Assembly (NCBI GenBank): GCA_013298025.1
Contig: JAAFJE010000016.1
Coordinates: 62,001 to 126,000 of the forward strand
Length of the DNA stretch: 64,000 nucleotides
Source: Cytophagales bacterium
Lineage (GTDB): Bacteria > Bacteroidota > Bacteroidia > Cytophagales > Spirosomataceae
Direction: 5' to 3'
Below the pieces are notes generated by a model that saw only the letters and a list, made by a program, of their open reading frames with translations, was not told where the DNA came from and searched no databases. Of the stretch, positions 36,786 to 53,312 are shown one piece after another. The translations under genes were made by a program, and so were the position numbers. The number at the start of each line of letters is the position of its first letter. Position 1 is the first letter of the stretch.

Positions 36786-36793
36786 TATCTTTG
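36786..36793 (+). promoter_or_regulatory. Probable -7 box of the helicase-methyltransferase operon
   Basis: TATCTTTG, about 29 bases before the helicase ATG; no perfect TTG at -33. The IS copy upstream leaves this promoter intact. Confidence 0.45.
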
Positions 36794-36821
36794 AAAATGA
36801 TTTAATAAAGAAATTTATCCA

Positions 36822-39800: not shown

Positions 39801-40130
39801 CTTGATGATGAAGCCAATATAAGAACAAACACTGCAAAAAAGTTTTTACGTTCTATTCGTACTAATGCTTTAACAGAAGCTTGTGAGGAAGCCTATCGAA
39901 AACTCATTCCTTTGTTGGAACAAGGAACTTATACCAATTTAGTAAACGATTTGGATAAAATAAGAAAGAAAAACCTCAAACAACAAGAAGTAGAAAAAGC
40001 AATCATCAAAATTTCTGAACGCTATGTAAGTAAACTACATATCGAACAAGCAGACCCAGACGAAGCTGAAAAAGAACTCCACATAGAATACAAAGAACCC
40101 GAAATTATTATTTCAGAATCGTTTATTTGA
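36822..40130 (+). CDS. SNF2-type helicase with N-terminal phospholipase D-like domain
   Basis: 1102-residue ATP-dependent DNA translocase. Residues ~15-200 form a PLD-like domain with an HKD-type motif (LHAKIYVFLPD followed by GSSNLTSAGLG), often a nuclease in such proteins. The SNF2 motor follows: Walker A ADVVGTGKTVMAAM near 280, DEAH box ILVDEAHKFRN near 362, motif III SATPLNNHP, and the C-terminal lobe with TEVLAEGVNLH and QRIGRVNRIGS. The methyltransferase gene starts 20 bases later, so they form a restriction-type pair in which this protein would be the restriction or translocation arm. Confidence 0.88.
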   Translation: MPSQFFTNDSNNSLLQKFQGVFENMANLHAFHAVVGYFRASGYFAIRENLLKLVDVKILVGIDVDSIIAQAQKVGLDLFKEDELTQKEFSKWLYNDIKEAKYSKDVETSIIQFIEDISSKKIEIRASKDRKLHAKIYVFLPDGFNEHKDGRVIMGSSNLTSAGLGIKHLSNNYEFNVELRGYEDVLFAENEFQRLWRVSTPILPESLQNIVKKTYLEREFSPFEIYIKFLIEYFGKNVEYDPESVGDLPTSFKKLSYQVDAVNQGFKMLEDHNGFFLADVVGTGKTVMAAMLAKRFIIANGTQKTRILIVYPPALEKNWRNTFKLFNIDRYTHFISNGSLNKIIDEDIKYASKEEYDLILVDEAHKFRNHRSIAFQNLQIICKSGRIQNGMIEGNQKKVVLISATPLNNHPRDIYYLIQLFQNTRSTTLPNVPNLQRFFNPYFEDYERLKRLREPENEDEKKAFYEHIRVEIKRIYAAIRENVIYPITIRRTRTDLRIEQYQKDLDSQGIKFPEIADPVAIEYKLGLKLEKLFYTTIGILTNENLLYYARYQAISNLKSEIKDKYYEQADRVSLALAVIMKTMMVKRLESSFTAFKISLNNFQKATNNMIKMFENNRIFIAPDLDINKLLDEGWSDEEIETRILEISEEKPNNRVFEAKDFEDDYLGQLQNDAKILDKLCNHWLEIKNDPKWDAFVALLQTELFSATKNASGKLVIFSESKDTTNYLFNQLRQNGFDKVLSISADNRKQMFETILENFDANYDKEKKNDYNIILTTEVLAEGVNLHRSNIIVNYDTPWNATRLMQRIGRVNRIGSTAKCVYNYNFYPSAQGNEEIQLRKTSYMKLQGFHSAFGEDSRIYTIEEVVEQFKMFKDGMPEDEDVRLRYLDFLRNFMKNNPDEFRRIKKLPPKARTTRKSTEKSGTSIAFMQNNIKKEVYFVNTDNKAIPLRFDEAARIFEANIHEKALDMPDFHFEQINKCSTQFEIDARSSVISTLDDEANIRTNTAKKFLRSIRTNALTEACEEAYRKLIPLLEQGTYTNLVNDLDKIRKKNLKQQEVEKAIIKISERYVSKLHIEQADPDEAEKELHIEYKEPEIIISESFI

Positions 40131-40149
40131 ACAAACACCTAATATTGCT

Positions 40150-43100
40150 ATGAACAAAACGGATATTCAAACCATTTTACAAAAACCATATCAATTAAGT
40201 CACTGGACTGAATTTTTAAAGGATATTTTCGGTGGAAGCTACCGAAATAATCCTCCTGCTATTGAGTTGCCTAACAATGATGTAGCTCATACTGCTTATG
40301 AAATTGGGCAGTTTACCACCACCGACAATATGCTGGTGGGTGTATATGAAGTGAAAATTAAAGACGGTGTAAGTATCGAAAACAAAAGAGTAAGTTTAAG
40401 GAATCTACTCAGGTCTGTTTACAGGGTTGTAGATGCGGCTTTAATTGTATTCGATACTGGCGAAACTTGGCGATTTAGCTACGTTTCTGAAATATTCGTT
40501 CGTGATGAAGCAGGAAATAGAAAACAGTTTAAAACCGACCCGAAACGATACACTTATGTATTGGGAAATGGTAGTGGTGTACGTACTGCTACCGAACGTT
40601 TTTTTGAACTATCAAAAAAAGGACAACAGGTTAAGCTAAAAGACTTGAATGATGCTTTCTCTGTCGAGCTTCTTACTAAAAACTTTTATCGTGACTTGTC
40701 GGATTGGTACTTCTGGGCTTTAACAAACGTAACATTTCCTGATGATGCCGAACCTAACGATGAAGTACGCAATGCTACTTCGGTGATAAGATTGATTACT
40801 CGCTTGATATTCGTGTGGTTTTTGAAACAAAAAAAACTTGTTCGAGATGAGCTTTTTGATGAGGCTACGATAAAGGAAATCTTGAAAAACTTTAATACTA
40901 ACAACGACCAACAAAGCAGTACCTATTACAAAGCTATTTTACAAAACCTATTTTTTGCTACACTCAATACTGAAATGACAGATGATAAACGCAAATTTAT
41001 CAATCGACAAACTGGTGTTCAGGGATTTTATCGCTATGAAAGATATTTCCAAAATAAAGAACGTTTCCTTGAATTAACCAAAGAAACGCCTTTCTTAAAT
41101 GGTGGACTCTTTGAAAACTTAGACCGTAACATTGGCGAGCCTAACGAAATCAGAATCGACTGTTTTTCTAATCGTTTATCGAATGAAAACCGACTAATTG
41201 TACCAGACTATCTATTTTTTGGAGAAGATACTACCGATTTAAGTAGCGTATATGATGACAAAAAAAGAAAAGCGGTACAGGTAAAAGGCATTATCCATAT
41301 TTTGAAGAGCTATAATTTTACAGTTGAAGAAAATACGCCAACCGACATCGAAGTAGCTCTTGACCCCGAACTACTTGGAAAAGTTTTTGAAAACCTATTG
41401 GCTTCCTACAACCCTGAAACAAAAACAACTGCCAGAAAACAAACTGGTAGTTTTTATACTCCTCGTGAGATTGTAGAATATATGGTGGACGAAAGCCTAA
41501 AAGCCTACTTAAAAGAAGCCTTACAAAACAGAACCGAAAATAACATTGAGGAGTGCTTAGACAACCTTTTTAGCTATTCCAACGAATATAACCCATTCAA
41601 TGAACAAGAAACGCTTGTACTGATTGGTGCTATTGACCGTTGTAAAATTCTTGACCCTGCTTGTGGTTCGGGAGCTTTTCCGATGGGGATTTTACAACGA
41701 TTAGTATTCTTATTACGAAAACTTGACCCCCTAAATGAGTACTGGCGTGAACAACAAATCTCAAGAGCTACCAAAGAGTTTGAGCAAGCCCTAAGACTCG
41801 GACAAAGCATTGATTTACAAACCCAAATACAAGAAATTACAGATACTTTTACCCATAATACAGATGACTTTGGTCGTAAATTGTATCTTATCGAAAATTG
41901 TATTTATGGCGTAGATATTCAGCCAATTGCTGTACAAATAGCCAAGTTGCGTTTCTTTATTTCCCTGATGGCAGAGCAAAATTCATTACAACAAGGAACA
42001 AACCGTGGCATACGCCCACTACCCAACCTCGAAACTAAGTTTGTGGCTGCCAATACACTTATTGGGCTTGAAAAACCAAGCCAACTCTTGCTGAAAAATA
42101 CGACTATTGATGTATTGGAGAAGCAATTGGAAGAAGTAAGACACAAACATTTCTTTGCCAGAACTCCAGAAACCAAAAAGAAATACAGACTAAAAGACCA
42201 AGAACTTAGAAAAGGAATCGCCCAATTGCTCAGTAACGACGGTTGGAAGCCCAGCAGTGCCAACCAAGTGGCAGCTTGGAATCCTTACGACCAAAGTACT
42301 TTTGCCTCTTTCTTCGATGCTGAATGGATGTTTGGGATAATCGATGGATTTGATATTGTGATTGGTAATCCTCCGTATGTCAGTGCAAATAATATGAGCT
42401 ACGAAGATAGAAATGCTTTGAATAAATCAGAGGAATATCAATACTTAAAAGGTAAATGGGATTTATATGTTCCTTTTGTGGAAAAATCAATTAAAATTCT
42501 ATCACGAAATGGTTTTTTTGTCTTTATAATTCCTTACGGAATATTAAATCAACCATTTGCCGAGGAACTTAGAAAAGCTATTTTGAAAGATTTCAAACTT
42601 CTATCAATAGTTGATTTGAAGAATAATAAAATTTTTGAAAATGCAACGGTACCATCTTGCATACCCATTATTCAGAGAAAGAAGAGTTTCAACCATGAGG
42701 TGAGTATACTAGGTTATTCTAAATCTGAATTTGCCAAAAATTATGGTATCAATATTCAGAAATATCATAACACTGAGCAGAATATGTTTAGGACTGAAAA
42801 CTTGAATAAGTTGTCTAGTATTTTAGATAGAATCAAAGCGAAAGGAAACACATTAGAGTCTAATTTTTATGTATCAACAGGAGCAGAAATTCATGGTAAA
42901 GAGTCAAAAGATGATATTGGGAAAACTATACCGGGAAAAAGTAAATTTGATGTACTTCATAAAATCTACAGTCAAGGTTTAAAACCTTATATAGAAGGTT
43001 CAGCTATTCCCAAATCTAAATCAGGAAGATATTCTTTCCCTAAAATAGATACTTGGTTAGATTACTCTAACCCTCAATTAATGCGTTCGGCCAAATTTAG

Positions 43101-43722
43101 TGAACTATTTGAAAGCGAGAAAATTATTTTAAGAGCTAGTAGTGGTAATCTAAGAATTCTTGCAATCTATGATGATAGAAATATATACACTTCTCATAAA
43201 TCAATCATCATTATTGAAAATTCAAATTTGCCTCAAGGTCATCTGTTGAAAAAAGATATTTCATTATTAAATTTAAAATACTTACTCGCAATACTGAATT
43301 GTCAGCTTATTGATTTCTACTATGGGACTGTATTTGGAGGGTTTATAGATGTTTATCCGAATAATTTAAAATCTCTACCCATTCCACAACTAAGCATTGC
43401 TCAACAGCAACCCTTTATTCGCCTTGTCGAATACATTTTACACTTAAAAAAAGAAGGTAAAGGAGAAAGTAATATAATGGCAAAGTATTTTGAGGAAATT
43501 GTGGATGGCTTGGTGTATGAGCTTTACTTTGAAGAAGAGCTTCATCAAGCAGGTGTTTATTTTCATAAGCATTTACAGGCACTGCCAAGTATTAGTGAAG
43601 ATACTATGAGCATAGCAACAATTTTCAGCGAACTGTACTCACCCAATCATCCCGTGCGTGAAAGTTTATTTAAGCTTGATACCGTAGAAGAAGTAGCCAT
43701 TATTATAGGTAAAAACCATTAG
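40150..43722 (+). CDS. Eco57I-like N6-adenine DNA methyltransferase (type IIG/ISP-like)
   Basis: 1190-residue SAM-dependent DNA methyltransferase. The SAM motif I is KILDPACGSGAFPMGIL near residue 500 and the catalytic NPPY is in FDIVIGNPPYVSANN near residue 740. Upstream is the helical domain with ARKQTGSFYTPREIVEYMV. The C-terminal region (from about 900, VSTGAEIHGKE) looks like a TaqI-type target-recognition domain. An N-terminal VGVYEVKIKDG may be part of a PD-(D/E)XK site, but this is weak. It forms an operon with the PLD-helicase: methylation protects self DNA, the helicase/nuclease acts on foreign DNA. Confidence 0.88.
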   Translation: MNKTDIQTILQKPYQLSHWTEFLKDIFGGSYRNNPPAIELPNNDVAHTAYEIGQFTTTDNMLVGVYEVKIKDGVSIENKRVSLRNLLRSVYRVVDAALIVFDTGETWRFSYVSEIFVRDEAGNRKQFKTDPKRYTYVLGNGSGVRTATERFFELSKKGQQVKLKDLNDAFSVELLTKNFYRDLSDWYFWALTNVTFPDDAEPNDEVRNATSVIRLITRLIFVWFLKQKKLVRDELFDEATIKEILKNFNTNNDQQSSTYYKAILQNLFFATLNTEMTDDKRKFINRQTGVQGFYRYERYFQNKERFLELTKETPFLNGGLFENLDRNIGEPNEIRIDCFSNRLSNENRLIVPDYLFFGEDTTDLSSVYDDKKRKAVQVKGIIHILKSYNFTVEENTPTDIEVALDPELLGKVFENLLASYNPETKTTARKQTGSFYTPREIVEYMVDESLKAYLKEALQNRTENNIEECLDNLFSYSNEYNPFNEQETLVLIGAIDRCKILDPACGSGAFPMGILQRLVFLLRKLDPLNEYWREQQISRATKEFEQALRLGQSIDLQTQIQEITDTFTHNTDDFGRKLYLIENCIYGVDIQPIAVQIAKLRFFISLMAEQNSLQQGTNRGIRPLPNLETKFVAANTLIGLEKPSQLLLKNTTIDVLEKQLEEVRHKHFFARTPETKKKYRLKDQELRKGIAQLLSNDGWKPSSANQVAAWNPYDQSTFASFFDAEWMFGIIDGFDIVIGNPPYVSANNMSYEDRNALNKSEEYQYLKGKWDLYVPFVEKSIKILSRNGFFVFIIPYGILNQPFAEELRKAILKDFKLLSIVDLKNNKIFENATVPSCIPIIQRKKSFNHEVSILGYSKSEFAKNYGINIQKYHNTEQNMFRTENLNKLSSILDRIKAKGNTLESNFYVSTGAEIHGKESKDDIGKTIPGKSKFDVLHKIYSQGLKPYIEGSAIPKSKSGRYSFPKIDTWLDYSNPQLMRSAKFSELFESEKIILRASSGNLRILAIYDDRNIYTSHKSIIIIENSNLPQGHLLKKDISLLNLKYLLAILNCQLIDFYYGTVFGGFIDVYPNNLKSLPIPQLSIAQQQPFIRLVEYILHLKKEGKGESNIMAKYFEEIVDGLVYELYFEEELHQAGVYFHKHLQALPSISEDTMSIATIFSELYSPNHPVRESLFKLDTVEEVAIIIGKNH

Positions 43723-43820
43723 ATTTTACCGTTTACTAAGTTTTCTTTCCATTAAAAGCTAAAACATTTGGTATAAAAGGCTGTAAATAAGATATTTAAG
43801 TGAAATTTAACACAAAACTT

Positions 43821-45482
43821 ATGAAACAGCTAACTCTATTACTCGTGCTTTTGGTTTCCATGTTCTCGGCTTATGGGCAGAAAAAAACTACGGATAAATC
43901 AAGGTTTTCGTTGAAAGCGGATACCTCTAATTTTGGAAAAAAAATGCCAATAAATAATTCCAATTTGGTAAGTTACTCATCCTTCAAAAGGATTTTTAAA
44001 CGAGATTTTGCATCTGTAGTAGGTACAAATAATTTACCTACCAACCAATTAATTGTAGGTCTGAATAAACCAGAAATATTATTTGGCAAATTATTTCAGA
44101 TATACAAAGACCCAAGTAAATCTATGCCTATATTAGGGCTATATCCCTTTTTAGGAGGAAAGCTCAACAACGATGATGAGTTTCGATTAGGAATTAATAA
44201 TACAAACAGTATTCATCTAAAATATGGGGGAAAAGTAGTTTTTTTCCCTTTGGGTTTAGCAAAAAAAACACGCTATTTTTTCAACTTGAGCGATTCCAAA
44301 ACGAAATTATTTATTGATAAAAATCAATTAATAAAACAAAAGCTAATAAGCGATTATGATAAAACAACATTTGAAGCAAAAAAGAAAAAGCTCTCTGACG
44401 AAGAAAAACAAATAGAAGAGGAAATAACCCAAAAAACAGAAAACGCTAAAACTATCAAGTATCTGTTAGGCTTAAAGTCCACTTTAAATATAAAGGTAGA
44501 TGATACCAATAAGTTAACAATCAGCCAAGAAGGAGGAGTTAATAGTATTGTTTTTGAGAAAGATGAAATTGAATCGGCTATCCAAAATATTCGTAAAAAT
44601 AATGGTTTTATACGCACAGTTGGAGTTAAAAATAAAAACGTTTTCATTCTCACCAACGAAAAAGACACAATTAATATATCACCAGTAGATATACTTAAAA
44701 GTTTAGATATATCAGATGATGACATTTCTAATTTGAAGGACAAAAAAAATAAAATAATAGCCAAAAAGATTGAAGTTGAAGAATTAGATGCTTCTTCCGA
44801 AAAGGACTTAAAAAAAATGTTGGAAGACAAAATATTCGAGGCTGAAAAAGATGCTCCTTGGACTAAACGTCACTTTTTATGGTTTACACTTGATTATGAT
44901 AATATTCCTCAAAGTGTGAATTTATTTCGTAATAACTCAATTGAAAAAGACCAAATTTATAGAAATGGCTCTTTAGGTATCTCTATTAACTACTCATATT
45001 TTAAGAAAAAATTGGGTTTTAATGGCTTTGCCAAATTTGAAAAATACAACAATAACAGTTTTTTGACAGATTATGATGCCATAACAATACTAAAAGATAG
45101 TATATTAACTGGTACACAATACAAAATTGCAGAATCAACAGAAGTCTATGATGTTCGTAAATTGACCACCTCGCAATTAGTAGAAAAGTCTAATAGAAAT
45201 CTATTAACATTAGGCATGACTATACTTAAAAGTTTTGGAGATATTGATAAAAAATATGGCGTAACTACTGAATATAAATCAGACTTAGACAAGAAAATCG
45301 CTAATTTAAAAATTGGTTTGATATTTCCAGTTATACTGGATAATTCAAAAGCCGAACAGTCAAATTTAATCTTTGAATTAGTCCTTCCTGATGTACACTC
45401 AAAAAGTATTGGTAATGATGAGAGTGCGTTTAAGCGGTCATACATTAACTTAAAATTAGGTATCCCTATAAACTTTTTATAA
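43821..45482 (+). CDS. Exported protein of unknown function on the island
   Basis: About 553 residues; I do not recognise the family. The start is placed at ATG 43821, which gives a signal peptide (MKQLTLLLVLLVSMFSAYGQ); a GTG seven codons upstream is possible. A Lys/Glu-rich helical middle (FEAKKKKLSDEEKQIEEEI) is followed by a region rich in beta-strand pattern (LGISINYSYFKKKLGFNGFAKF, INLKLGIPINFL), so the C-terminal half could be an outer-membrane barrel. It ends 6 bases before the ATPase gene, in one operon with it. An exported protein beside restriction genes is unusual. Confidence 0.6.
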   Translation: MKQLTLLLVLLVSMFSAYGQKKTTDKSRFSLKADTSNFGKKMPINNSNLVSYSSFKRIFKRDFASVVGTNNLPTNQLIVGLNKPEILFGKLFQIYKDPSKSMPILGLYPFLGGKLNNDDEFRLGINNTNSIHLKYGGKVVFFPLGLAKKTRYFFNLSDSKTKLFIDKNQLIKQKLISDYDKTTFEAKKKKLSDEEKQIEEEITQKTENAKTIKYLLGLKSTLNIKVDDTNKLTISQEGGVNSIVFEKDEIESAIQNIRKNNGFIRTVGVKNKNVFILTNEKDTINISPVDILKSLDISDDDISNLKDKKNKIIAKKIEVEELDASSEKDLKKMLEDKIFEAEKDAPWTKRHFLWFTLDYDNIPQSVNLFRNNSIEKDQIYRNGSLGISINYSYFKKKLGFNGFAKFEKYNNNSFLTDYDAITILKDSILTGTQYKIAESTEVYDVRKLTTSQLVEKSNRNLLTLGMTILKSFGDIDKKYGVTTEYKSDLDKKIANLKIGLIFPVILDNSKAEQSNLIFELVLPDVHSKSIGNDESAFKRSYINLKLGIPINFL

Positions 45483-45488
45483 AATAAC

Positions 45489-47315
45489 ATGAAAATCAAA
45501 ACCATAAAAATACACAATTACAGAGCGTTCTATCCTCAAAAAGACAGTAATCAAAATTCAAAACCTTATGAAATTGAGGTAAATGGTAAAAATGTATTGA
45601 TTTATGGTGAAAACGGCTCGGGAAAAACATCACTTTTCCGGGCCGTTCGTGATTTCATCAAGTCAAGTCAGTCATCACTGCCTTTTGAATCTAATGCTTT
45701 CGTTCCATCACCAAACGGTGTTATGGAAGAAGGAGAAATATCTTTGGATTTTATAGGAAATACTCAAGTTTTTAAATTCACAAACGATGCTGGGAGAAAT
45801 AATGCAAATACTGACCCTAATATTAAATCAGCTGATAAGGCAAGCGGTTGGTTAACTTATGCTGAAATTTTAAAAACCTATTTAGTAGATAAACAGAAGC
45901 CCGATTTATTTGATTTATTGGTGAAGCAAATACTAACGAATCATTTCCTTCCACCATCTACAAGCAAAACTATTGGCGAAGAATGGACTTTACTTGAGAA
46001 CAATATAAATGGGCGACGAAACAATCCAGCAGTGAAGCCATTACTCAAGGCAAATGGAAAACTCAATTGTGATGATTTTAACAGTGGATTCAAAATATTG
46101 TTAAAAGGTTTGCAAAACGGAGCTAATAACATCGAAGGGATTGAATCAATTTTAAATAATTGGCTTTCAACATACTTCAAAAATGGGCTACAAGTAAGCT
46201 TTAATTTCCAAGACGTAATAGAAGAAACGAATACTGGCAAGAGTAAAAAAAGATATGAATTAAAACGGTCATTGACGTTGGATATTTCACTTCATGGCAC
46301 TCCTATTCCCATCGCTGAGTACCAAATTTTTTTAAATGAAGCTCGTCTGTCAGCTTTGGCTATCTGTATCTTTTTAGCAGCTTATAAAACTTATCCAACG
46401 GATACTATTCCTACTAAAATATTGTATTTAGACGATGTATTCATTGGTTTAGATATGTCTAATCGGCTTCCTCTGTTTGATATATTACAAAAGGAGTTTA
46501 TTCAAAATGGTTATCAAGTTTTTGTGAGTACCTATGATAGAAGTTGGTTTGAATTAGCCAAAAAACATCTTTCGGATTGGAGTACAATTGAGATGTTTGT
46601 AGGAGAAAACGAACATCCAGTGATAATTCCAAACAAAGGTAATCTTCAAAGAGCCAAGGAATACTTCAAGGCAAAAGACTATCCTGCCGCAGGCAATTAT
46701 TTGAGGAAAGAGGTTGAACGATTAGTTTTAGTCCATCTACCAATAACATACAGATATGATAATAGTGGAGTTTTACTAACTGAATTAGAGCGTTTAATAG
46801 ACCAACTCATCAAGTATTATAAAGATTGTCATTGTGAAACTTCAATAGATGCTGATTTACAACAATCTCTTAAAATGTTCAAAGACCTTGTTCTTAATCC
46901 TTCATCACACTACGACTTGAAAAGTCCTTTATATAAAATAGAAGTTGAAAAAGCTTTTGAGGTAGTAGAAAAGTTATCTCAATTACCCACCATTGACCGA
47001 AAACTTCTTTTAGGAATGGGAAGTTCTTTGTATTATGAAAATACAGCCCAAGCATACAAAGCCGAGTATATGCTGGTCGAAAATGTGTATAAAATAACTG
47101 CCGCATCAGACGTTATCATTACCGATGCAAAACATAAATTGATTAGGTTTTGGGAAAGCGCAGTAGAGAAATCTGGACATAATGATAAAATTACCCTCTC
47201 AGAACGTGTAAAAAGAATTGAACATCATCTCCATTTACCAGCCAATACAGTTAATTGGAAAGATGATTTTAAAACGAGTGAGGGTAGAAGTTTGAACCAA
47301 CTTAGTGCACAATAA
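45489..47315 (+). CDS. ABC/RecF-like AAA ATPase with C-terminal helical domain
   Basis: 608-residue ATPase of the SMC/RecF/OLD-like class. Walker A is LIYGENGSGKTSLFRAV near residue 45. The signature-like LNEARLSALAICIFLA and Walker B KILYLDDVFIGLDMSNR lie near 285-325. The C-terminal ~220 residues are helical (AKEYFKAKDYPAAGNYLRKE, then LNPSSHYD), similar to the HEPN-like tails of defence ATPases such as RloC; that resemblance is inference. There is no long coiled coil. It overlaps or abuts the next gene, suggesting a two-gene unit. Confidence 0.75.
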   Translation: MKIKTIKIHNYRAFYPQKDSNQNSKPYEIEVNGKNVLIYGENGSGKTSLFRAVRDFIKSSQSSLPFESNAFVPSPNGVMEEGEISLDFIGNTQVFKFTNDAGRNNANTDPNIKSADKASGWLTYAEILKTYLVDKQKPDLFDLLVKQILTNHFLPPSTSKTIGEEWTLLENNINGRRNNPAVKPLLKANGKLNCDDFNSGFKILLKGLQNGANNIEGIESILNNWLSTYFKNGLQVSFNFQDVIEETNTGKSKKRYELKRSLTLDISLHGTPIPIAEYQIFLNEARLSALAICIFLAAYKTYPTDTIPTKILYLDDVFIGLDMSNRLPLFDILQKEFIQNGYQVFVSTYDRSWFELAKKHLSDWSTIEMFVGENEHPVIIPNKGNLQRAKEYFKAKDYPAAGNYLRKEVERLVLVHLPITYRYDNSGVLLTELERLIDQLIKYYKDCHCETSIDADLQQSLKMFKDLVLNPSSHYDLKSPLYKIEVEKAFEVVEKLSQLPTIDRKLLLGMGSSLYYENTAQAYKAEYMLVENVYKITAASDVIITDAKHKLIRFWESAVEKSGHNDKITLSERVKRIEHHLHLPANTVNWKDDFKTSEGRSLNQLSAQ

Positions 47316-47349
47316 TGAATATGATTTTATCACTATAAAATTTGATACT

Positions 47350-48258
47350 ATGGATAATTTTTCAAATAGAATGGCATTTATTAATCAATATGGCGATTTT
47401 CTCAAAAATCAACCGTACATAGAAAGCCTTCGGCTATTGTATCCTAATTTATTCAAAGGGTGGGAACGAAATGAAGAAGATAATATAAAAAACCTCAAAA
47501 CAAAACTCTATTATGCCAAGCTGGCTAATCAAGATGTTAATACGATAATAGACGATGAAATTTCAAAATGCTACCAAATAGTGTCAAAGGAAAACAACAT
47601 AATGTTATTGAATATTGCTAATAGTAAAATGGAAGCAATTGGAGAATTACTAAAAGACAATGTATCAACAATTCTTGAAAATCAATTTCAGCTAGACGAT
47701 ATATCAGACTATACCAATATTGACAAAACAAAGATATTATCACTTGCTGAATTTATCAATAGTCATGCCGTGCAACCCCATAACTCTTCGGCTATTAGTG
47801 TTTATACTGATGAATTTGAAAAGTTATCGACGGCAGAACAGGAACAAAGATTTAAGGATATTATGAACATAAATAATGAAACGGAACAGCAAAATATGTT
47901 TTTTGAACATAAAATTATAAAAACATGGTTTGTCAATAAATATTTTCTTCGTTTAGTCAGTGAAAGTAATGACCTAAAAGACCCTGTCAGTAATAAAATT
48001 GAGAATAATGAAAGAATAGAATGGAACGGCACACAAAAAGAATTAGCAGAATTATTTGTTGAATTACATCGTAAAAAGTGGATAGATGAAATTCCTTCTA
48101 AGCTTATCAAACAATATTTCACAAAATCAGATACTATTGAGCAAGTACTAAAACCTACACAAGACAAAAAAACACAAGAAAAAAGTTACGAAGGTATCTT
48201 TACAATTGCATACAGACCACGCTTTGACGCAATAAGGCAATGCTCTAAAAAACAATAA
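47350..48258 (+). CDS. Partner of the island ATPase; RteC-like C-terminal domain
   Basis: About 302 residues from ATG 47350; a GTG at 47305 would add 15 codons and overlap the ATPase stop. The N-terminal two thirds are helical without a recognisable motif. The C-terminal segment IEWNGTQKELAELFVELHRK resembles the winged-helix-like domain at the end of Bacteroidota RteC and other mobile-element proteins. A terminator follows. Probably a regulator or effector of the ATPase; function unknown. Confidence 0.55.
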   Translation: MDNFSNRMAFINQYGDFLKNQPYIESLRLLYPNLFKGWERNEEDNIKNLKTKLYYAKLANQDVNTIIDDEISKCYQIVSKENNIMLLNIANSKMEAIGELLKDNVSTILENQFQLDDISDYTNIDKTKILSLAEFINSHAVQPHNSSAISVYTDEFEKLSTAEQEQRFKDIMNINNETEQQNMFFEHKIIKTWFVNKYFLRLVSESNDLKDPVSNKIENNERIEWNGTQKELAELFVELHRKKWIDEIPSKLIKQYFTKSDTIEQVLKPTQDKKTQEKSYEGIFTIAYRPRFDAIRQCSKKQ

Positions 48259-48267
48259 CTTATACCT

Positions 48268-48305
48268 AAAAAGTCGTTACGGTAATCATTATAGTAACGA
48301 CTTTT
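48268..48305 (+). terminator. Terminator after the ATPase-partner operon
   Basis: AAAAAGTCGTTAC pairs with GTAACGACTTTT around a 13-base loop, followed by TTTT. Confidence 0.75.
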
Positions 48306-48351
48306 ATCTTGCCTTTTCATCAACTTTGTCATGTTCAAAATAGATACAAAC

Positions 48352-48696
48352 ATGACAGAAACAATTCTAATTACCTTCTCTAAACATGAATTCAAGGAAT
48401 TCATTAAAGGCACAATTCAGGAAGCAATGAGTGAGCAAACGAACTCCTCAAAAGGTAAAACTTTCCAATCACACGAGTATCTCTCTATTGATGAGGCTTC
48501 AAGTTATCTTCAACTCCCTAAAAACACATTATACAGCTATTGCCATAATAATGTAATTCCGTATCACAAAAGAGGAAAAAGAAACTACTTTCTTAAAGCT
48601 GATTTGGATGTGTGGATGGCATCAAATCGTAAAAACTCAGTAAGAGAAATTCAAGAAGAAGCTCTGACTAAACTAAAGAAAGGAGGCTCACGATGA
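48352..48696 (+). CDS. HTH (MerR-like/excisionase) DNA-binding protein
   Basis: About 114 residues from MTETILITFSKHEF (48352); an ATG seven codons earlier is probably too close to the promoter-like CAACTTTG at 48320. The core HEYLSIDEASSYLQLPKNTLY and KRGKRNYFLKADLDVWM is the helix-turn-helix of excisionase/MerR-like proteins. It is the first gene of the mobilisation/replication block, a frequent place for an excisionase on Bacteroidota mobilisable islands. Its stop overlaps the next start (ATGA). Confidence 0.75.
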   Translation: MTETILITFSKHEFKEFIKGTIQEAMSEQTNSSKGKTFQSHEYLSIDEASSYLQLPKNTLYSYCHNNVIPYHKRGKRNYFLKADLDVWMASNRKNSVREIQEEALTKLKKGGSR

Positions 48697-49091
48697 ATCA
48701 TCTTTCCTCTACTCCCAATACAAGTGGCTCTGTATTATATTGGGAAGCTGTTTGCAAACAAGAGATGTTGCGTATCGACAAGCTAATGGAAGCGAAGTGT
48801 AAGCGTTTAGCCTACCTACGACAAAAGTTGGATGAAGAGATGGATAGTAAAGTGTTTTACCAAATCAAGTCCCTAGAAGAAGAAATTCATACCATTTTAG
48901 GATTGATAGATACGACCCAATCACTAAAGCAAGCATACCTTGGAGAAACTGCGAATGTCGCTGATTTACTCACTACGCTCACTTGTGAAAATCAGGTACT
49001 AACAGAGCAGACCCGTTTAATGAATTGTGCGATTGAGCTTATGTTAGAACGAAGCTTTACTACTCAAAAAAAGGGAGAAAATGAACATTAA
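48693..49091 (+). CDS. Hypothetical coiled-coil protein of the mobilisation block
   Basis: 132 residues, mainly helical and charged (RIDKLMEAKCKRLAYLRQKL, EIHTILGLIDTTQSLKQAYL). It has no motif that I recognise. It overlaps the HTH gene by 4 bases and the RepA-like gene by 11 bases, so it is translated as part of that operon. Confidence 0.65.
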   Translation: MNHLSSTPNTSGSVLYWEAVCKQEMLRIDKLMEAKCKRLAYLRQKLDEEMDSKVFYQIKSLEEEIHTILGLIDTTQSLKQAYLGETANVADLLTTLTCENQVLTEQTRLMNCAIELMLERSFTTQKKGENEH

Positions 49092-50217
49092 TAAGTATGC
49101 CCAATTGCTCAATCCAGAGCCAACGAACGGAGGTTTTCCTAGTTATGCCAATCCCAATCTTGCGAAGGTATTGGCGACTCAGAAACGCCTTACAACCAAT
49201 AGTTGTCAGGCGATAGCCTTTAGTTTGCCCATCATTACCTATCAAGATACAGGGATTATTTACCCCAATACTATCAACATCATTCAGGGAAAGAAGGGCG
49301 TACATAAATCAAGGTTAACGGAAATCTTTTGTGGTTTGATGTTGAGGCAACACCTACCAATAGCAACGCACCAGTTTTTAGGAATGGTGCGTGAGCCAAT
49401 GCACAAGGCAGTGGTATTATATGTTGATACCGAACGAAATATCAACGACCAGTTTCCTTATGCTATTCAAAAGATTAAGCTATTGGCAGGATACCCGATA
49501 GAAGAAGAGCCTCCAAATTTCGATTATATCTCACTTATTGATATTGCTCGCAGTGAAAGATTTGATACGCTCAATGAGTATATCAAGCGTTTCAGAGTTC
49601 AACATGAAAATCATAATCTTTTCATCGTTTTTGATGTTGTGACCGATTGTGTTGAGAACTTCAATGATGTTAGAGAAAGTCTAAGGCTTGTGGATATGCT
49701 CAATGAAACCATCAACCTATACAACGTTACTTTCCTTTGTGTCATTCATGAAAACCCTTCGGCGGGTAATGACAAAGGACGTGGGCATTTAGGTACAGAA
49801 CTCAATAATAAAGCCTCTCAGGTCATACAAATCGGTTTCGAGAAAGACAACCAAGGCAATGATACCGACTTAATACGCTTAAAGTTTCTACATTCAAGAA
49901 ACACCAAACGACTAGAGCCGATTTATGTGCAATATTCAGAAGAAACGAAAGGTTTGGTATTGGCGAATGTTGATTTTATCAATGAAAAATTGGCGATGAA
50001 AAAAACAAAAGCCCAATTAATTGATATTCAAAACTGGCTTACCAATCATCTAAAGGAAGCTAAAAGTAAAAAAGAGCTAATCGAGGAGATTAAAATCGCT
50101 TTTGATTGTGGAGAAAGAACGATTGAAGATAGGTTGAAAGAATTAGATGACAAAGGTTTTATAAAACGCTTTACTGTGGGCAGAAGTGCCTATTATAAAT
50201 TGATTATTCCATTCTAA
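49081..50217 (+). CDS. RepA/AAA_25-like ATPase of the mobilisation block
   Basis: RecA-fold ATPase of 378 residues, similar to replicative helicase RepA of mobile elements. The P-loop is IIQGKKGVHKSRLTE near residue 68 (G-K-K-G-x-x-K-S). Acidic residues are in VLYVDTERN and NLFIVFDVVTD, and VIHENPSAGNDKGRGHLG is the sensor loop. The last ~70 residues look like a winged helix (GERTIEDRLKELDDKGFI). Related proteins help plasmid-like replication or mobilisation of excised islands. Confidence 0.75.
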   Translation: MNINKYAQLLNPEPTNGGFPSYANPNLAKVLATQKRLTTNSCQAIAFSLPIITYQDTGIIYPNTINIIQGKKGVHKSRLTEIFCGLMLRQHLPIATHQFLGMVREPMHKAVVLYVDTERNINDQFPYAIQKIKLLAGYPIEEEPPNFDYISLIDIARSERFDTLNEYIKRFRVQHENHNLFIVFDVVTDCVENFNDVRESLRLVDMLNETINLYNVTFLCVIHENPSAGNDKGRGHLGTELNNKASQVIQIGFEKDNQGNDTDLIRLKFLHSRNTKRLEPIYVQYSEETKGLVLANVDFINEKLAMKKTKAQLIDIQNWLTNHLKEAKSKKELIEEIKIAFDCGERTIEDRLKELDDKGFIKRFTVGRSAYYKLIIPF

Positions 50218-50218
50218 G

Positions 50219-50268
50219 AACGTTCGCACTCGCAAAGCCATATATAGGGGTTTGCGAATGCGAACGTT
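50219..50268. repeat. 17-bp inverted repeat after the RepA-like gene
   Basis: AACGTTCGCACTCGCAA pairs with its inverse at 50252-50268 with one mismatch, around a 16-base loop. No long T-run follows. It could be a replication or operator site or an intrinsic terminator. Confidence 0.5.
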
Positions 50269-50284
50269 ATAAAAACAGCAAATC

Positions 50285-50473
50285 ATGAGCAATTCTACCA
50301 AATATCCCCCAATGAATCGAACCGAATTGGCTCGAAAATATAAAGTGAGCATTCCAACCTTTAACAAATGGCTAGGGTTGATACCAGAGCTTGTTTTGAT
50401 AGAGAACCAAAGAATCTTTACGCCTAAACAAGTAGAAATTATTACCACACACCTAGGCGAACCACCTGATTAA
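50285..50473 (+). CDS. Small HTH protein
   Basis: 62 residues. MNRTELARKYKVSIPTFNKWL is a helix-turn-helix, followed by a short wing (NQRIFTPKQVEIITTHLG). Such proteins are common between the rep and mob genes of Bacteroidota mobilisable elements. Start ATG 50285. Confidence 0.65.
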   Translation: MSNSTKYPPMNRTELARKYKVSIPTFNKWLGLIPELVLIENQRIFTPKQVEIITTHLGEPPD

Positions 50474-50492
50474 TTCCCTAAAAACAAGTAAG

Positions 50493-50637
50493 CATTAACG
50501 TAAATTAATCCGAATTAACCCACGTTAACCCTCATAAACTCGAAAGCGGTTTATGGGGGTTAATTAGTTTTATACCAATAAAATTAACAGGAGTTAATTT
50601 TCAAATGTAAATCACGATTAATTAACGAAAGAGTCCA
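50493..50637. other. Candidate oriT/origin region with iterated TTAA motifs and hairpin
   Basis: Directly upstream of the MobC-like gene: several spaced TTAAC/TTAAT motifs, then an inverted repeat (TAACCCTCATAAAC at 50526-50539, inverse 50549-50562, one mismatch). Inverted repeats next to mobC genes are typical of oriT; the identification is positional only. Confidence 0.4.
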
Positions 50638-51063
50638 ATGAACGAAATCAGAACAGGTAGAGCCTTGCAATTGGAAAGGCTTCAATATGCTACCAACAAA
50701 GTAACCCTCGGCTTCAAATGTGAAGCTCAAACCAAAATAGCCTTGGCTCAGGAAGCCCAACAGATAGGAATGACTCTCAGCGAATATGTTGAAACAGTTA
50801 TTTCGAGCAGAAACCATCAAGTAAAATCAAGTGAAGATGGTACTTCGGAGTTAATGACCACGGTAGCCTCTCAGCAAAAGCTTATCGACAAGCTCAAAAC
50901 AAAGGTTAATTTTTATGAAAACGACCTACTGCGAAGAGCCTTTCATAGTCATAGAGGGCAAACCATCGAATACACCAATAGTCATGGCAAAATAGTGAGC
51001 AAAACTATCAGCCAAATAGAAGACGTTTTCACTGTATTATTAGACACCGTAAAACTATCGTAA
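50638..51063 (+). CDS. MobC-like ribbon-helix-helix mobilisation protein
   Basis: 141 residues. KVTLGFKCEAQTKIALAQEA and GMTLSEYVETVI form a ribbon-helix-helix DNA-binding domain, followed by a coiled coil (LMTTVASQQKLIDKLKTKV). This resembles relaxosome accessory proteins of Bacteroidota. The relaxase gene that normally follows is missing, so transfer would need a relaxase in trans, or the block has been truncated. Confidence 0.65.
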   Translation: MNEIRTGRALQLERLQYATNKVTLGFKCEAQTKIALAQEAQQIGMTLSEYVETVISSRNHQVKSSEDGTSELMTTVASQQKLIDKLKTKVNFYENDLLRRAFHSHRGQTIEYTNSHGKIVSKTISQIEDVFTVLLDTVKLS

Positions 51064-51065
51064 CC

Positions 51066-51329
51066 ATGTTTGAAACCATCGCACATCCCTTTGAGCAAGT
51101 AGGCGAAAGCCTATCGGGTTTAGCTGTAGAAACAGCCATTGGCGTGGTCACACCATCAACCAGTAAAGGCTTTGGAGTGCTACGTATGCTCTTGATTTTG
51201 TTACTCTTGATATTCGGCGTAGGTTTTTACATCGTCTTTTACTACTTGCCAAGAAAGAAGGAGGAGAAACAATCATTGGAGGAGAATGAAACTATTCCCA
51301 ATAAAAAAATAGCTTCCGTTGTTGATTAG
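51066..51329 (+). CDS. Small membrane protein at the island right end
   Basis: 87 residues with one membrane helix (LRMLLILLLLIFGVGFYIVF) and a charged tail (KKEEKQSLEENE). It starts 3 bases after the MobC-like gene. Such small membrane proteins are found after mobC in related islands; its function is unknown. Confidence 0.6.
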   Translation: MFETIAHPFEQVGESLSGLAVETAIGVVTPSTSKGFGVLRMLLILLLLIFGVGFYIVFYYLPRKKEEKQSLEENETIPNKKIASVVD

Positions 51330-51412
51330 ACAATACTATTACAATTCTCATTCATCCATATCTCTGGATTACCAGATACACTTATGGTTAAGGTACAAAT
51401 ATTTATCTATAA

Positions 51413-51435
51413 TTTGTTTAAACCATATTTAAACC
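51413..51435. promoter_or_regulatory. Probable integrase arm-binding site, right end
   Basis: TTTGTTTAAAC at 51413-51423, followed by a variant ATTTAAACC at 51427-51435, matching the 11-mer repeats near the left end (33006-33047). About 50 bases inside attR. Confidence 0.5.
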
Positions 51436-51441
51436 GAAAAT

Positions 51442-51474
51442 AAAAAAGGAGTCACAGTTTCTTGTAACTCCTTG
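51442..51474 (-). terminator. Terminator of tRNA-Pro, supplied by the island
   Basis: On the minus strand AAGGAGTTACA pairs with TGTGACTCCTT and runs into six T, 12 bases past the tRNA 3' end. It is inside the island; a hairpin of similar sequence lies outside attL at 32810-32845, so island and host each carry a version. Confidence 0.75.
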
Positions 51475-51484
51475 ATTTTCAATA

Positions 51485-51528
51485 GTCGGGATGACAGGAT
51501 TTGAACCTGCGACCCCACGCCCCCCAGA
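51485..51528 (-). other. attR: 3' half of the intact tRNA-Pro gene
   Basis: Same 44 bases as attL (32849-32892), running from just after the discriminator into the anticodon loop. The island therefore rebuilt the tRNA 3' half on integration. Confidence 0.85.
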
Positions 51529-51559
51529 CGTGTGCGCTACCGGGCTGCGCCACATCCCG
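51486..51559 (-). tRNA. tRNA-Pro (anticodon GGG)
   Basis: 74 bases folding into a full cloverleaf: acceptor CGGGATG/CATCCCG, D-stem GCGC/GCGC, anticodon stem CACGT/GCGTG with loop CTGGGGG (anticodon GGG), T-arm GCAGG-TTCAAAT-CCTGT, discriminator A. CCA is not encoded, as usual in Bacteroidota. It is the integration target of the island and the last element of the GIY-YIG repeat array upstream. Confidence 0.95.
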
Positions 51560-51564
51560 AATAA

Positions 51565-51819
51565 TTACTGTTTCTCTGCTATATCTGCAAGAAACCTAAC
51601 CGCTCCTCTCTTTTTTATTTTTGTTTCAAGCATACCAGCTTCGCTATCTTCTAATAAATCGGATTTCCAAACACATATCCACGGGCTTCCCGATTTGGTA
51701 GAAGTATTTAGCCCAGCGTTATGTTGAGCAAGTCTTCGTTCAAAATGTATTGTTTTACCTGTATAATATTTAGCTGTTTTTGAGCTAAATAGTATGTAAA
51801 CAACAGTATCTTTCGGCAT
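51565..51819 (-). CDS. GIY-YIG nuclease, array copy 1 (type A)
   Basis: Small single-domain GIY-YIG endonuclease of the UvrC/URI superfamily, 84 residues from MPKDTVVYILF. VYI and YYTGKT correspond to the GIY and YIG strands, R in FERRLAQHNAG is the catalytic arginine and E in MLETKIKKRG is the metal-binding glutamate. An in-frame extension to 51891 (MWRSPVAHT) reads through the tRNA fragment and is rejected as start. This copy has GLNTSTK and EAGMLE. It is the copy next to the intact tRNA-Pro, 6 bases upstream of it. Confidence 0.85.
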   Translation of the reverse strand: MPKDTVVYILFSSKTAKYYTGKTIHFERRLAQHNAGLNTSTKSGSPWICVWKSDLLEDSEAGMLETKIKKRGAVRFLADIAEKQ

Positions 51820-51860
51820 AGATGTAAAGGATTTGAATCTCCACGCCATCGGCGTGGCCT

Positions 51861-51895
51861 CAGACGTGTGCGCTACCGGGCTGCGCCACATCCCG
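51861..51895 (-). pseudogene. tRNA-Pro 5' half, array copy 1
   Basis: Identical to the first 34-35 bases of the intact tRNA (acceptor 5' strand, D-arm, anticodon stem 5' strand, CTG of the loop), then diverging to AGGCCACGCC. The hairpin CCACGCCGATGGCGTGG follows (51841-51857). Confidence 0.9.
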
Positions 51896-51900
51896 AATAA

Positions 51901-52155
51901 TTACTGTTTCTCTGCTATATCTGCAAGAAACCTAACCGCTCCTCTCTTTTTTATTTTTGTTTCAAGCATACTAGCTTCGCTATCTTCTAATAAATCGGAT
52001 TTCCAAACACATATCCACGGGCTTCCTGATTTGGTAGAAGTATTTTGCCCAGCGTTATGTTGAGCAAGTCTTCGTTCAAAATGTATGGTTTTACCTGTAT
52101 AGTATTTAGCTGTTTTTGAGCTAAATACTATGTACACAACAGTATCTTTCGGCAT
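51901..52155 (-). CDS. GIY-YIG nuclease, array copy 2 (type B)
   Basis: 84-residue GIY-YIG domain as in copy 1, with all catalytic positions kept. Type B residues: YIVFSSK near the start (this copy only) and GQNTSTK. The gene is intact, and the stop is 3 bases before the next tRNA sequence in the array. All differences between copies are single bases, so the copies arose by recent duplication or are homogenised by gene conversion. Confidence 0.85.
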   Translation of the reverse strand: MPKDTVVYIVFSSKTAKYYTGKTIHFERRLAQHNAGQNTSTKSGSPWICVWKSDLLEDSEASMLETKIKKRGAVRFLADIAEKQ

Positions 52156-52196
52156 AGATGTAAAGGATTTGAACCTCCACGCCACCGGCGTGGCCT

Positions 52197-52231
52197 CAGA
52201 CGTGTGCGCTACCGGGCTGCGCCACATCCCG
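52197..52231 (-). pseudogene. tRNA-Pro 5' half, array copy 2
   Basis: Same 35-base tRNA 5' half as in copy 1; the following hairpin is CCACGCCGGTGGCGTGG and the T-arm-like segment is AGGTTCAAATCCT (type B). Confidence 0.9.
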
Positions 52232-52236
52232 AATAA

Positions 52237-52491
52237 TTACTGTTTCTCTGCTATATCTGCAAAAAACCTAACCGCTCCTCTCTTTTTTATTTTTGTTTCA
52301 AGCATACTAGCTTCGCTATCTTCTAATAAATCGGATTTCCAAACACATATCCACGGGCTTCCCGATTTGGTAGAAGTATTTAGCCCAGCGTTATGTTGAG
52401 CAAGTCTTCGTTCAAAATGTATTGTTTTACCTGTATAATATTTAGCTGTTTTTGAGCTAAATAGTATGTAAACAACAGTATCTTTCGGCAT
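52237..52491 (-). CDS. GIY-YIG nuclease, array copy 3 (type A)
   Basis: 84-residue GIY-YIG protein with an intact frame. It shares GLNTSTK with copy 1 and has VRFFADI where the others have VRFLADI. Catalytic Arg and Glu are preserved. Confidence 0.85.
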   Translation of the reverse strand: MPKDTVVYILFSSKTAKYYTGKTIHFERRLAQHNAGLNTSTKSGSPWICVWKSDLLEDSEASMLETKIKKRGAVRFFADIAEKQ

Positions 52492-52532
52492 AGATGTAAA
52501 GGATTTGAATCTCCACGCCATCGGCGTGGCCT

Positions 52533-52567
52533 CAGACGTGTGCGCTACCGGGCTGCGCCACATCCCG
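52533..52567 (-). pseudogene. tRNA-Pro 5' half, array copy 3
   Basis: 35-base tRNA 5' half, followed by the type A hairpin (CCACGCCGATGGCGTGG) and AGATTCAAATCCT. Confidence 0.9.
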
Positions 52568-52572
52568 AATAA

Positions 52573-52827
52573 TTACTGTTTCTCTGCTATATCTGCAAGA
52601 AACCTAACCGCTCCTCTCTTTTTTATTTTTGTTTCAAGCATACTAGCTTCGCTATCTTCTAATAAATCGGATTTCCAAACACATATCCACGGGCTTCCTG
52701 ATTTGGTAGAAGTATTTTGCCCAGCGTTATGTTGAGCAAGTCTTCGTTCAAAATGTATGGTTTTACCTGTATAGTATTTAGCTGTTTTTGAGCTAAATAG
52801 TATGTACACAACAATATCTTTCGGCAT
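52573..52827 (-). CDS. GIY-YIG nuclease, array copy 4 (type B)
   Basis: 84-residue GIY-YIG protein, frame intact. It carries MPKDIVVYILF and GQNTSTK, like copy 5. Catalytic residues preserved. Confidence 0.85.
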   Translation of the reverse strand: MPKDIVVYILFSSKTAKYYTGKTIHFERRLAQHNAGQNTSTKSGSPWICVWKSDLLEDSEASMLETKIKKRGAVRFLADIAEKQ

Positions 52828-52868
52828 AGATGTAAAGGATTTGAACCTCCACGCCACCGGCGTGGCCT

Positions 52869-52903
52869 CAGACGTGTGCGCTACCGGGCTGCGCCACATC
52901 CCG
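52869..52903 (-). pseudogene. tRNA-Pro 5' half, array copy 4
   Basis: 35-base tRNA 5' half with the type B hairpin (CCACGCCGGTGGCGTGG) downstream. Confidence 0.9.
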
Positions 52904-52908
52904 AATAA

Positions 52909-53163
52909 TTACTGTTTCTCTGCTATATCTGCAAGAAACCTAACCGCTCCTCTCTTTTTTATTTTTGTTTCAAGCATACTAGCTTCGCTATCTTCTAATA
53001 AATCGGATTTCCAAACACATATCCACGGGCTTCCTGATTTGGTAGAAGTATTTTGCCCAGCGTTATGTTGAGCAAGTCTTCGTTCAAAATGTATGGTTTT
53101 ACCTGTATAGTATTTAGCTGTTTTTGAGCTAAATAGTATGTACACAACAATATCTTTCGGCAT
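52909..53163 (-). CDS. GIY-YIG nuclease, array copy 5 (type B, promoter-proximal)
   Basis: 84-residue GIY-YIG protein with the same sequence as copy 4 at protein level. It is the first gene after the array promoter. Catalytic residues preserved. Confidence 0.85.
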   Translation of the reverse strand: MPKDIVVYILFSSKTAKYYTGKTIHFERRLAQHNAGQNTSTKSGSPWICVWKSDLLEDSEASMLETKIKKRGAVRFLADIAEKQ

Positions 53164-53204
53164 AGATGTAAAGGATTTGAACCTCCACGCCACCGGCGTG
53201 GCCT

Positions 53205-53239
53205 CAGACGTGTGCGCTACCGGGCTGCGCCACATCCAG
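53205..53239 (-). pseudogene. tRNA-Pro 5' half, array copy 5 (outermost)
   Basis: Same tRNA 5' half, but the acceptor begins CTGGATG instead of CGGGATG, a substitution at position 2. This end borders unique host DNA and is probably the ancestral tRNA 5' end. Confidence 0.88.
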
Positions 53240-53281
53240 AACTTATGCTACCCTTACGACATATTCTGTTATTTGGGACTG

Positions 53282-53312
53282 CAAAATTACACGTTGTGTA
53301 GTAAAAACACAA
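53282..53312 (-). promoter_or_regulatory. Promoter of the tRNA-Pro / GIY-YIG array
   Basis: On the minus strand TTG (53310-53312), a 20-base spacer and TAATTTTG (53282-53289), a full consensus match. Transcription would start near 53275, about 35 bases before the outermost tRNA 5' half. No comparable promoter is visible at the ends of the internal units. Confidence 0.6.

Follow-up and report, generated by a model that had tools for sequence, protein, structure and literature searches.

The stretch of DNA analysed here, hereafter the window, comprises 64,000 nucleotides of a Cytophagales bacterium of the family Spirosomataceae (assembly GCA_013298025.1, contig JAAFJE010000016.1, positions 62,001 to 126,000), and it contains a tandem array in which altered copies of a tRNA-Pro gene alternate with small genes for a GIY-YIG nuclease. 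The array occupies positions 51525-53241 with a period of 336 bp, 5.1 copies and 97% matches (Tandem Repeats Finder). It reads on the minus strand: each unit begins with a tRNA-Pro copy, an open reading frame (ORF) of 84 codons follows, and a single intact tRNA-Pro(GGG) gene comes last (51485-51559, minus strand; ARAGORN, and 59.6 bits in Rfam). The five ORFs, taken from the ORF list and compared with each other, lie on the minus strand at 51565-51819 (ORF 1, also recognised by Pfam), 51901-52155, 52237-52491, 52573-52827 and 52909-53163 (ORFs 2 to 5). Each starts where a tRNA copy ends, and would count 108 codons if started at an upstream ATG within that copy. The tRNA copies, numbered likewise and also on the minus strand, are found at 51819-51893, 52155-52229, 52491-52565, 52827-52901 and 53163-53237, the fifth being the array's first in reading direction. 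Three of the five match the Rfam tRNA model over positions 1-71 at 23.1 bits, which is below the cut-off of 29 bits; these are copies 2, 4 and 5, the last of which ARAGORN also calls as an unassigned tRNA with a four-base anticodon, and copies 1 and 3 were placed from these matches by the 336-bp period and by their sequence.

What distinguishes these copies from the intact gene is that the anticodon arm of each has been swapped for a palindrome, CCACGCC-GRT-GGCGTGG, located by pattern search at 51841-51857, 52177-52193, 52513-52529, 52849-52865 and 53185-53201, and we refer to them as marked copies. A preliminary description of the array, made from the sequence alone, had reported five tandem units, an intact 84-codon GIY-YIG gene with its key residues kept and one complete tRNA-Pro(GGG) at the end, all of which the analysis bears out. 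It had taken each copy for a tRNA 5' half followed by a hairpin. The 5' half is indeed preserved (35 of 35 positions identical to the intact gene in four units, 34 of 35 in one), but the copy is a full-length tRNA-like stretch with one arm replaced and a decayed 3' side, and the hairpin, although present in every unit, had not been recognised as a conserved palindrome that marks the copy.

The units are not identical copies, since the five ORFs vary at nine nucleotide sites, five nonsynonymous and four synonymous. Several variable sites within 51565-53235 alternate in the order A-B-A-B-B between units, as would result from duplication of a block of two units. The copy number rests on a draft assembly of 53 contigs, which might suggest an assembly artefact or a chance duplication; given the differences between units and the four- and five-copy arrays found in large or single contigs of two other genomes (G082 and G700), we regard this as extremely unlikely. 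In the window's own genome the pattern CCACGCN{2,6}GCGTGG occurs at ten sites, five in the array, two in a second array at 32.6-32.8 kb and three elsewhere, while its reversed control occurs at none. No second intact tRNA-Pro appeared among the own-genome DNA matches to a query limited to roughly the tRNA's first 40 nt. The coding strand of the 336-bp unit encodes the GIY-YIG ORF alone and thus no integrase of its own, and a group I intron was rejected for the window, as Rfam at E ≤ 0.1 yields only tRNA between 51300 and 53500. By eye, a TAnnTTTG box, which we take to be a promoter consensus, lies at 53282-53289 ahead of the first unit, so that the ORFs sit between a promoter-like box and the tRNA. 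A similar box precedes the first unit in loci of another genus discussed below (again by eye), and from this layout the ORFs of upstream arrays are probably expressed from it.

The one window ORF that was scanned matches the GIY-YIG domain PF01541 with an E-value of 4.8e-12. In an alignment of 13 rows including the window domain, the Y, Y, G, R, H and E columns, among which are the residues we assume to be catalytic, are invariant. AlphaFold models the window protein with a mean predicted local distance difference test (pLDDT) score of 89, and the model of a relative (L029) finds its best solved fold in the I-TevI catalytic domain (E-value 8e-3) and its next in UPF0213 (0.14), none reaching E ≤ 0.001. 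The group I intron endonuclease model TIGR01453 scores 19 bits against a cut-off of 56, and matches to PHROG families are weak. Besides the five array ORFs, the own genome holds one further GIY-YIG match, in a 629-residue frame that we presume from its length to be UvrC.

Of 390 genomes sampled within the order, 129, the window's own among them, encode a relative of the window protein, and a profile search that scored at most 15 candidates per genome detected the nuclease family in 257 of the 392 genomes sampled across the phylum. Tandem nuclease copies are common (for instance four in G082, five in G700 and three in G321). We analysed 157 loci, 89 from the order and 68 from the phylum draw, and called a locus linked when a called tRNA gene lay within 600 bp of the nuclease gene. 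Linkage was found at 79 of 89 and 63 of 68 loci respectively, together 142 of 157, counts that include some called tRNAs which are themselves marked copies (for example L100 and L193; in the named sample described below, two 'Stop' calls are of this kind). For comparison, Y1 transposase genes had a tRNA within the same distance at one of 30 loci, and that single case, at a contig end, was a lenient count. Fourteen of the 15 unlinked loci have a tRNA part or marked fragment (by eye), an Rfam tRNA match, or a contig edge within 150 bp, leaving L024 as the sole unlinked locus with neither a tRNA trace nor a nearby contig edge. All 63 linked nuclease genes of the phylum set are on the strand of the tRNA, which is upstream in 53 and downstream in 10. 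In the order set 64 linked loci are same-strand (tRNA upstream in 50, downstream in 14), and 15 have the nuclease gene on the opposite strand beside tRNA-Ala. The spacing between nuclease gene and tRNA is short, often 40-75 bp.

A third sample consisted of named genomes, including Flavobacterium, Algoriphagus, Chitinophaga, Mucilaginibacter, Fodinibius and assemblies labelled Ignavibacteria, Calditrichia and Cloacimonadota. When scanned with the window protein it gave no matches; a single Flavobacterium-type protein succeeded as query. Here 71 of 80 loci were linked and all 71 were same-strand, although not every group of the sample is among these 71, and some of the genomes overlap the order and phylum sets, so that the counts are not additive. 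The preliminary description held that a family located mainly away from tRNA genes would speak against it, and no such distribution was seen in any of the three samples. The window protein itself has no relatives in four congeners of its genome. These keep rho, but the 3.6-kb loci around it have neither a tRNA nor a unit, and since a tRNA is missing there the congeners supply no empty site for the window. As to the opposite-strand loci (L066, L072, L076, L078-L080, L082, L084-L088, L091, L094 and L097), they concern single members 155-200 bp from tRNA-Ala(GGC) in part of the window's family, possibly a domesticated ortholog. Separately, L317 (labelled Ignavibacteria) and L178 share an identical palindrome and flanks, and are possibly one record.

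The marked copies are not peculiar to the window. We scanned for perfect palindromes with a stem of at least 6 and a loop of at most 8 nt outside the intact tRNA, both 9-nt flanks of which match the tRNA with at most two mismatches each. An extra copy of the same tRNA with an embedded palindrome was thus found at 88 of the 142 linked loci. In five draws of each control, a tRNA for a different amino acid gave 7-17 such loci and a shuffled tRNA 0-3. At least two of the 141 palindrome sites, in L048 and L193, are simply the normal anticodon arm of a tRNA-Pro copy. By position the 141 sites divide into the anticodon arm (104), the T side (29), the D side (6) and the variable region (2), and at 80 of them the boundaries are identical, with nt 27-43, the anticodon arm, replaced. 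Which arm is affected varies with the tRNA: the palindrome is on the anticodon arm at 18 of 23 Pro, 19 of 21 Ala, 4 of 4 Lys and 2 of 2 Ile loci and on the T arm at 9 of 12 Asp loci, while Gly, Val and Asn are mixed. The outer stem is most often TCCCG paired with CGGGA (99 sites), followed by TGGCG (12, mostly Pro) and CCCCG (9). With these shared stems and 110 distinct palindromes among 120 locus-palindrome pairs, we read the outer stem as conserved and the centre as free.

This form of palindrome brings up the main competing explanation, a palindrome-nuclease system resembling that of repetitive extragenic palindromic (REP) sequences and their REP-associated tyrosine transposases (RAYTs), with a GIY-YIG enzyme instead. 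The nuclease would recognise and mobilise the TCCCG/CGGGA hairpin in single-stranded or cruciform form, tRNA arms would be hairpin targets, and linkage to tRNA genes would reflect where the system persists. The preference for the TCCCG stem with its free centre argues for it, as does the sequence kinship of the nuclease to SLX1. Moreover, the count of TCCCGA..TCGGGA palindromes rises with nuclease count (Spearman 0.53 over 392 genomes, 0.57 over 179 genus means, 0.26 pooled within genera with n=223), although this correlation is partly trivial because arrays themselves add palindromes, and it is non-significant in six of the seven genera with at least eight genomes, the largest Flavobacterium-type genus included. 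Palindromes also occur away from tRNAs. Of 15 dispersed TCCCGA..TCGGGA sites fetched from genome G296 (L111-L125), 13 have no tRNA in the locus, and a GIY-YIG gene was found at none of the 15 or at L129; the palindrome is therefore not confined to arrays. Among these sites L112 lies in the loop of a terminator-like hairpin, and L124 is beside a riboswitch-like sequence, presumably a cobalamin riboswitch. RAYT-type Y1 transposases are not needed: PF01797 is present in 12 of 14 genomes, the window's included, and has no match in the array-bearing G317 and G082, so that the idea of a RAYT as obligatory origin of the palindromes finds no support. The hairpin system alone leaves the tRNA-specific nuclease lineages described below unexplained. 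We consider it unlikely, if the strongest of the competitors.

Two further observations concern G296. Marked copies stand beside its tRNA-Val, tRNA-Asp, tRNA-Met and tRNA-Pro (L126, L127, L128 and L130), and repeats without an ORF form tandem copies at tRNA-Asp and 96-bp units at tRNA-Met. One 19-bp palindrome form recurs many times in this genome.

Which half of a marked copy is preserved goes largely with its position relative to the intact tRNA. The comparison took palindromes that have, on one side of the anticodon arm, a 25-nt stretch matching the tRNA at 80% or more. Where the marked copy lies upstream of the intact gene, the mean identity is 0.94-0.97 on the 5' side and 0.55-0.56 on the 3' side, and where it lies downstream 0.90-0.95 on the 3' side and 0.58-0.67 on the 5' side. 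Counted per locus, 32 of 34 upstream cases are as expected (one opposite, one tie), as are 28 of 34 downstream cases (six opposite). This mirror pattern fits the outcome expected if a unit and a tRNA gene had undergone a single exchange to one or the other side of the palindrome, and for that reason we prefer such an origin over plain tandem duplication, although a duplication whose inner half later decayed would look similar.

The window seems to have held both arrangements at one gene, given a second array which, like the mirror pattern, the preliminary description had missed. The intact tRNA-Pro also hosts an integrated element of ~18.6 kb (32893-51484) with a tyrosine integrase at 33073-34293. 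It is bounded by 44-bp repeats that cover the tRNA between its anticodon loop and its 3' end, of which 51485-51528 is identical to 32849-32892 (minus strand), a tRNA-Pro 3' part at the far end of the element, which now separates the two arrays. Beyond that end lies the second array, whose two units consist of the palindrome CCACGCTTGGAGCGTGG, a tRNA 3' part and a terminator-like hairpin, without an ORF; palindrome and 3' part cover 32751-32791 and, repeated, 32653-32693 (both minus strand). Because this array holds 3' parts, the tRNA was apparently once flanked on two sides: judged by this arrangement, it probably had, before the element's arrival, upstream copies keeping the 5' half and downstream copies keeping the 3' half. 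The same element raises the idea that the units are by-products of integrases, anticodon loops being attachment sites and the units small passengers of site-specific recombination. Its presence in this very tRNA and the extent of its 44-bp repeats agree with that idea; the repeat has no palindrome, however, palindromes occur at T and D arms too, and marked copies come in mirror topologies, which makes this explanation very unlikely. The element also carries a defence-like block, with a helicase with a PLD domain, an Eco57I-type methylase, an SMC/AAA-like ATPase and a YhcG-type nuclease (Pfam).

We then asked how nuclease descent relates to the tRNA served, on a tree of 90 sequences and 72 columns from a short search, with many unresolved forks. 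The tRNA-identity tests used 63 of the 90 rows, namely those that have an assigned tRNA and stand outside the opposite-strand group. On the tree the amino acid of the tRNA switches 18 times, compared with at least 33 times in 200 shuffles and at least 30 times when the shuffling of labels was confined to each host family. In 29 of 63 cases the closest nuclease of a different host family goes with a tRNA for the same amino acid; shuffling gave at most 21 such cases and 11 on average. By these tree-based measures nuclease lineages track tRNA identity across host families. Host descent matters too, since the host family changes 13 times as against at least 19 when shuffled.

Sites with and without units could be compared in one genus of the window's family. 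All 48 of its genomes match the tRNA-Pro query, and 28 of 30 fetched loci contain the tRNA, preceded in every case by the same flank. Three of these have one unit, one has three units, one (L153) has an ORF that stops after 70 codons, one has a truncated remnant, and 22 have no ORF, among them L152 with a scrap of the 5' half (by eye); these 22 of 28 do not give a genus-wide rate, since L018 and L019 of the same genus bear the ORF in other arrangements. In the empty L168 and L170 the flank runs directly into the tRNA, whereas L167 has the same flank, three units and then the unchanged tRNA. Over six pairs of the four carriers the ratio of nonsynonymous to synonymous substitution rates (dN/dS) is ~0.06-0.17, pairs with L153 having no usable dS, and judged by these ratios the ORF is under purifying selection in this genus. 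In the four carriers ORF and flank identities are alike (e.g. 86.8 vs 81.2% and 97.9 vs 96.5%). L153 looks discordant, with 69-72% identity in the ORF and 78-82% in the flank, and is possibly a separate arrival or a case of faster decay.

Selection on the ORF could also mean that the nuclease serves its host, setting tRNA expression or dosage together with the structured leader, for example by amplifying a tRNA region under attack. The common strand and the short spacing would suit such a device, and the phage endonuclease SegB amplifies its own tRNA locus under a tRNA-cutting defence (PMC13096335). However, the extra tRNA copies are broken, and amplification therefore yields no working tRNA. 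The distribution is also patchy, with 22 of 28 loci of one genus unit-free at the same tRNA and no homologue of the window protein in any of the four congeners. We therefore find this explanation quite unlikely.

The reading we favour is that the array is a minimal homing-like element on tRNA genes, which duplicates itself there and regenerates the tRNA; with cleavage as its presumed first step, it has about an even chance of being correct. A unit consists of a copy of the host tRNA gene with one arm swapped for a palindrome and a domain-only GIY-YIG gene on the strand of the tRNA. The nuclease would break or nick the intact tRNA gene near the later position of the palindrome, and the unit's own marked tRNA copy would serve as the repair partner, so that half a tRNA is duplicated and the tRNA regenerated. 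After an exchange in the 5' half the unit would lie upstream, in the order marked copy, ORF and intact tRNA that the window shows; after one in the 3' half it would lie downstream, with the intact tRNA first, then the ORF and the marked copy. Both exchanges would regenerate one intact tRNA, and on this account the host survives because that happens each time. Without the site, the marked copy would stay uncut, its palindrome being a protected or recognised site, and the regenerated intact tRNA could be used again, so that tandem arrays build up. A regenerated tRNA had already been proposed in the preliminary description, and both mirror topologies and the empty sites fit that idea. Taken together, the widespread arrangement beside tRNA genes suggests an unrecognised genetic parasite of these genes.

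Several results weigh against this homing-like reading. The intact tRNA-Pro is identical in the filled L167 and the empty L168 and L170, so that a target there would survive insertion and the element gives the host's tRNA no protection, a comparison which assumes that the target lies within the tRNA. The earlier proposal of a minimal selfish element is partly supported, with the tRNA linkage upheld and the unchanged tRNA speaking against homing of the standard kind. From the agreement of ORF and flank, the four carriers likely reflect mostly vertical descent with loss. Pfam shows only the GIY-YIG domain and no DNA-binding domain in the 84-residue protein, and its closest solved structures by sequence are UPF0213 (1zg2, 1.1e-10; 1ywl, 7.1e-10) and SLX1 (1.8e-4), the latter of which recognises structure rather than sequence. 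The conserved TCCCG stem is not needed by a homing-like process, seven of 68 locus-side cases contradict the mirror rule and one ties, and nonsynonymous changes make up five of the nine among the window ORFs. Finally, no vehicle of transfer was seen, as the phage and plasmid searches were near-empty: 50,697 phage records contain nothing related to the window protein, a relative's protein has a distant match in one Rhizobium phage alone (two records), and the Flavobacterium-type protein has no match in plasmids.

The homing-like process and the hairpin as substrate may also both be true. On the sequence patterns above, one could envisage a selfish system with two parts, belonging to Bacteroidota and phyla close to them, in which a domain-only GIY-YIG nuclease acts with the TCCCG/CGGGA hairpin as terminus and recognition mark, with tRNA genes as obligatory hosts and lineages specialised on particular tRNAs. 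The tRNA genes would be obligatory since half-copies give the homology to regenerate a tRNA from either side. We put this combined reading forward tentatively, as somewhat doubtful; if true, it would constitute a class of ~0.3-kb mobile elements without transposase, integrase, intron or DNA-binding domain.

Among known systems the nearest worked example is SegB of T-even phages, a free-standing GIY-YIG homing endonuclease that cuts within tRNA genes and drives tandem tRNA-segB amplification (PMC13096335) and is an instance of intronless homing (PMC2988022). A survey in PMC13096335 is confined to phage and archaeal-virus proteins and describes no preference for particular tRNAs. In both cases a GIY-YIG gene adjoins tRNA genes, and SegB-type homing endonuclease genes are likewise present or absent at one site between close relatives. 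Unlike phage-borne SegB, the window family is chromosomal, with ~84 residues and no DNA-binding domain found, and it has tRNA-tied lineages, palindrome-marked tRNA copies, mirror topologies and an intact tRNA unaltered by insertion. Because we looked for a DNA-binding domain and for target alteration and saw neither, the family is set apart from homing endonuclease genes.

Other likenesses are partial. The window nuclease has kinship to UPF0213 (presumably YhbQ-like) and SLX1 proteins in sequence and, at weak E-values, in fold; to our knowledge UPF0213 proteins are not linked to tRNA genes or arrayed, and the literature search found no paper combining two of the terms GIY-YIG, UPF0213 and YhbQ. 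Elements with tyrosine integrases insert in tRNA genes and duplicate a part of the tRNA so that the intact gene is restored, a feature they share with the window units, which differ in having no integrase, a palindrome at the junction, either half duplicated and tandem units of 0.3 kb. REP palindromes with RAYT transposases are short GC-rich palindromes by a small nuclease gene; here the enzyme fold is another, the palindromes take fixed positions in tRNA copies, and arrays occur where no Y1 transposase was found. Group I introns with GIY-YIG nucleases occur in tRNA anticodon loops and share nuclease type and target gene, but the window array has no intron and its intact tRNA is uninterrupted. 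In a literature search of titles and abstract beginnings, with few subscription papers and no preprints, we found no description of tRNA-linked chromosomal GIY-YIG arrays or of palindromes replacing tRNA arms; the preliminary description likewise knew of no system with this architecture. Should the homing-like reading hold, undescribed elements that duplicate parts of essential tRNA genes non-lethally are present in the majority of the genomes sampled from a large phylum (257 of 392). It would then explain tandem broken tRNA copies, supply minimal nucleases with predicted tRNA-specific targets, and provide a chromosomal counterpart of SegB-driven tRNA amplification. Annotators of tRNA genes should note that tRNA calls with odd anticodons are in some cases marked copies.

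One locus combines two of the arrangements discussed. In L055 (2300-3600) a tRNA-like gene is apparently interrupted near the anticodon by a group I intron (RF00028, 79 bits, 3326-3579), and a GIY-YIG ORF and palindrome-marked tRNA copies lie just upstream of this intron-bearing gene, perhaps two kinds of tRNA parasite together.

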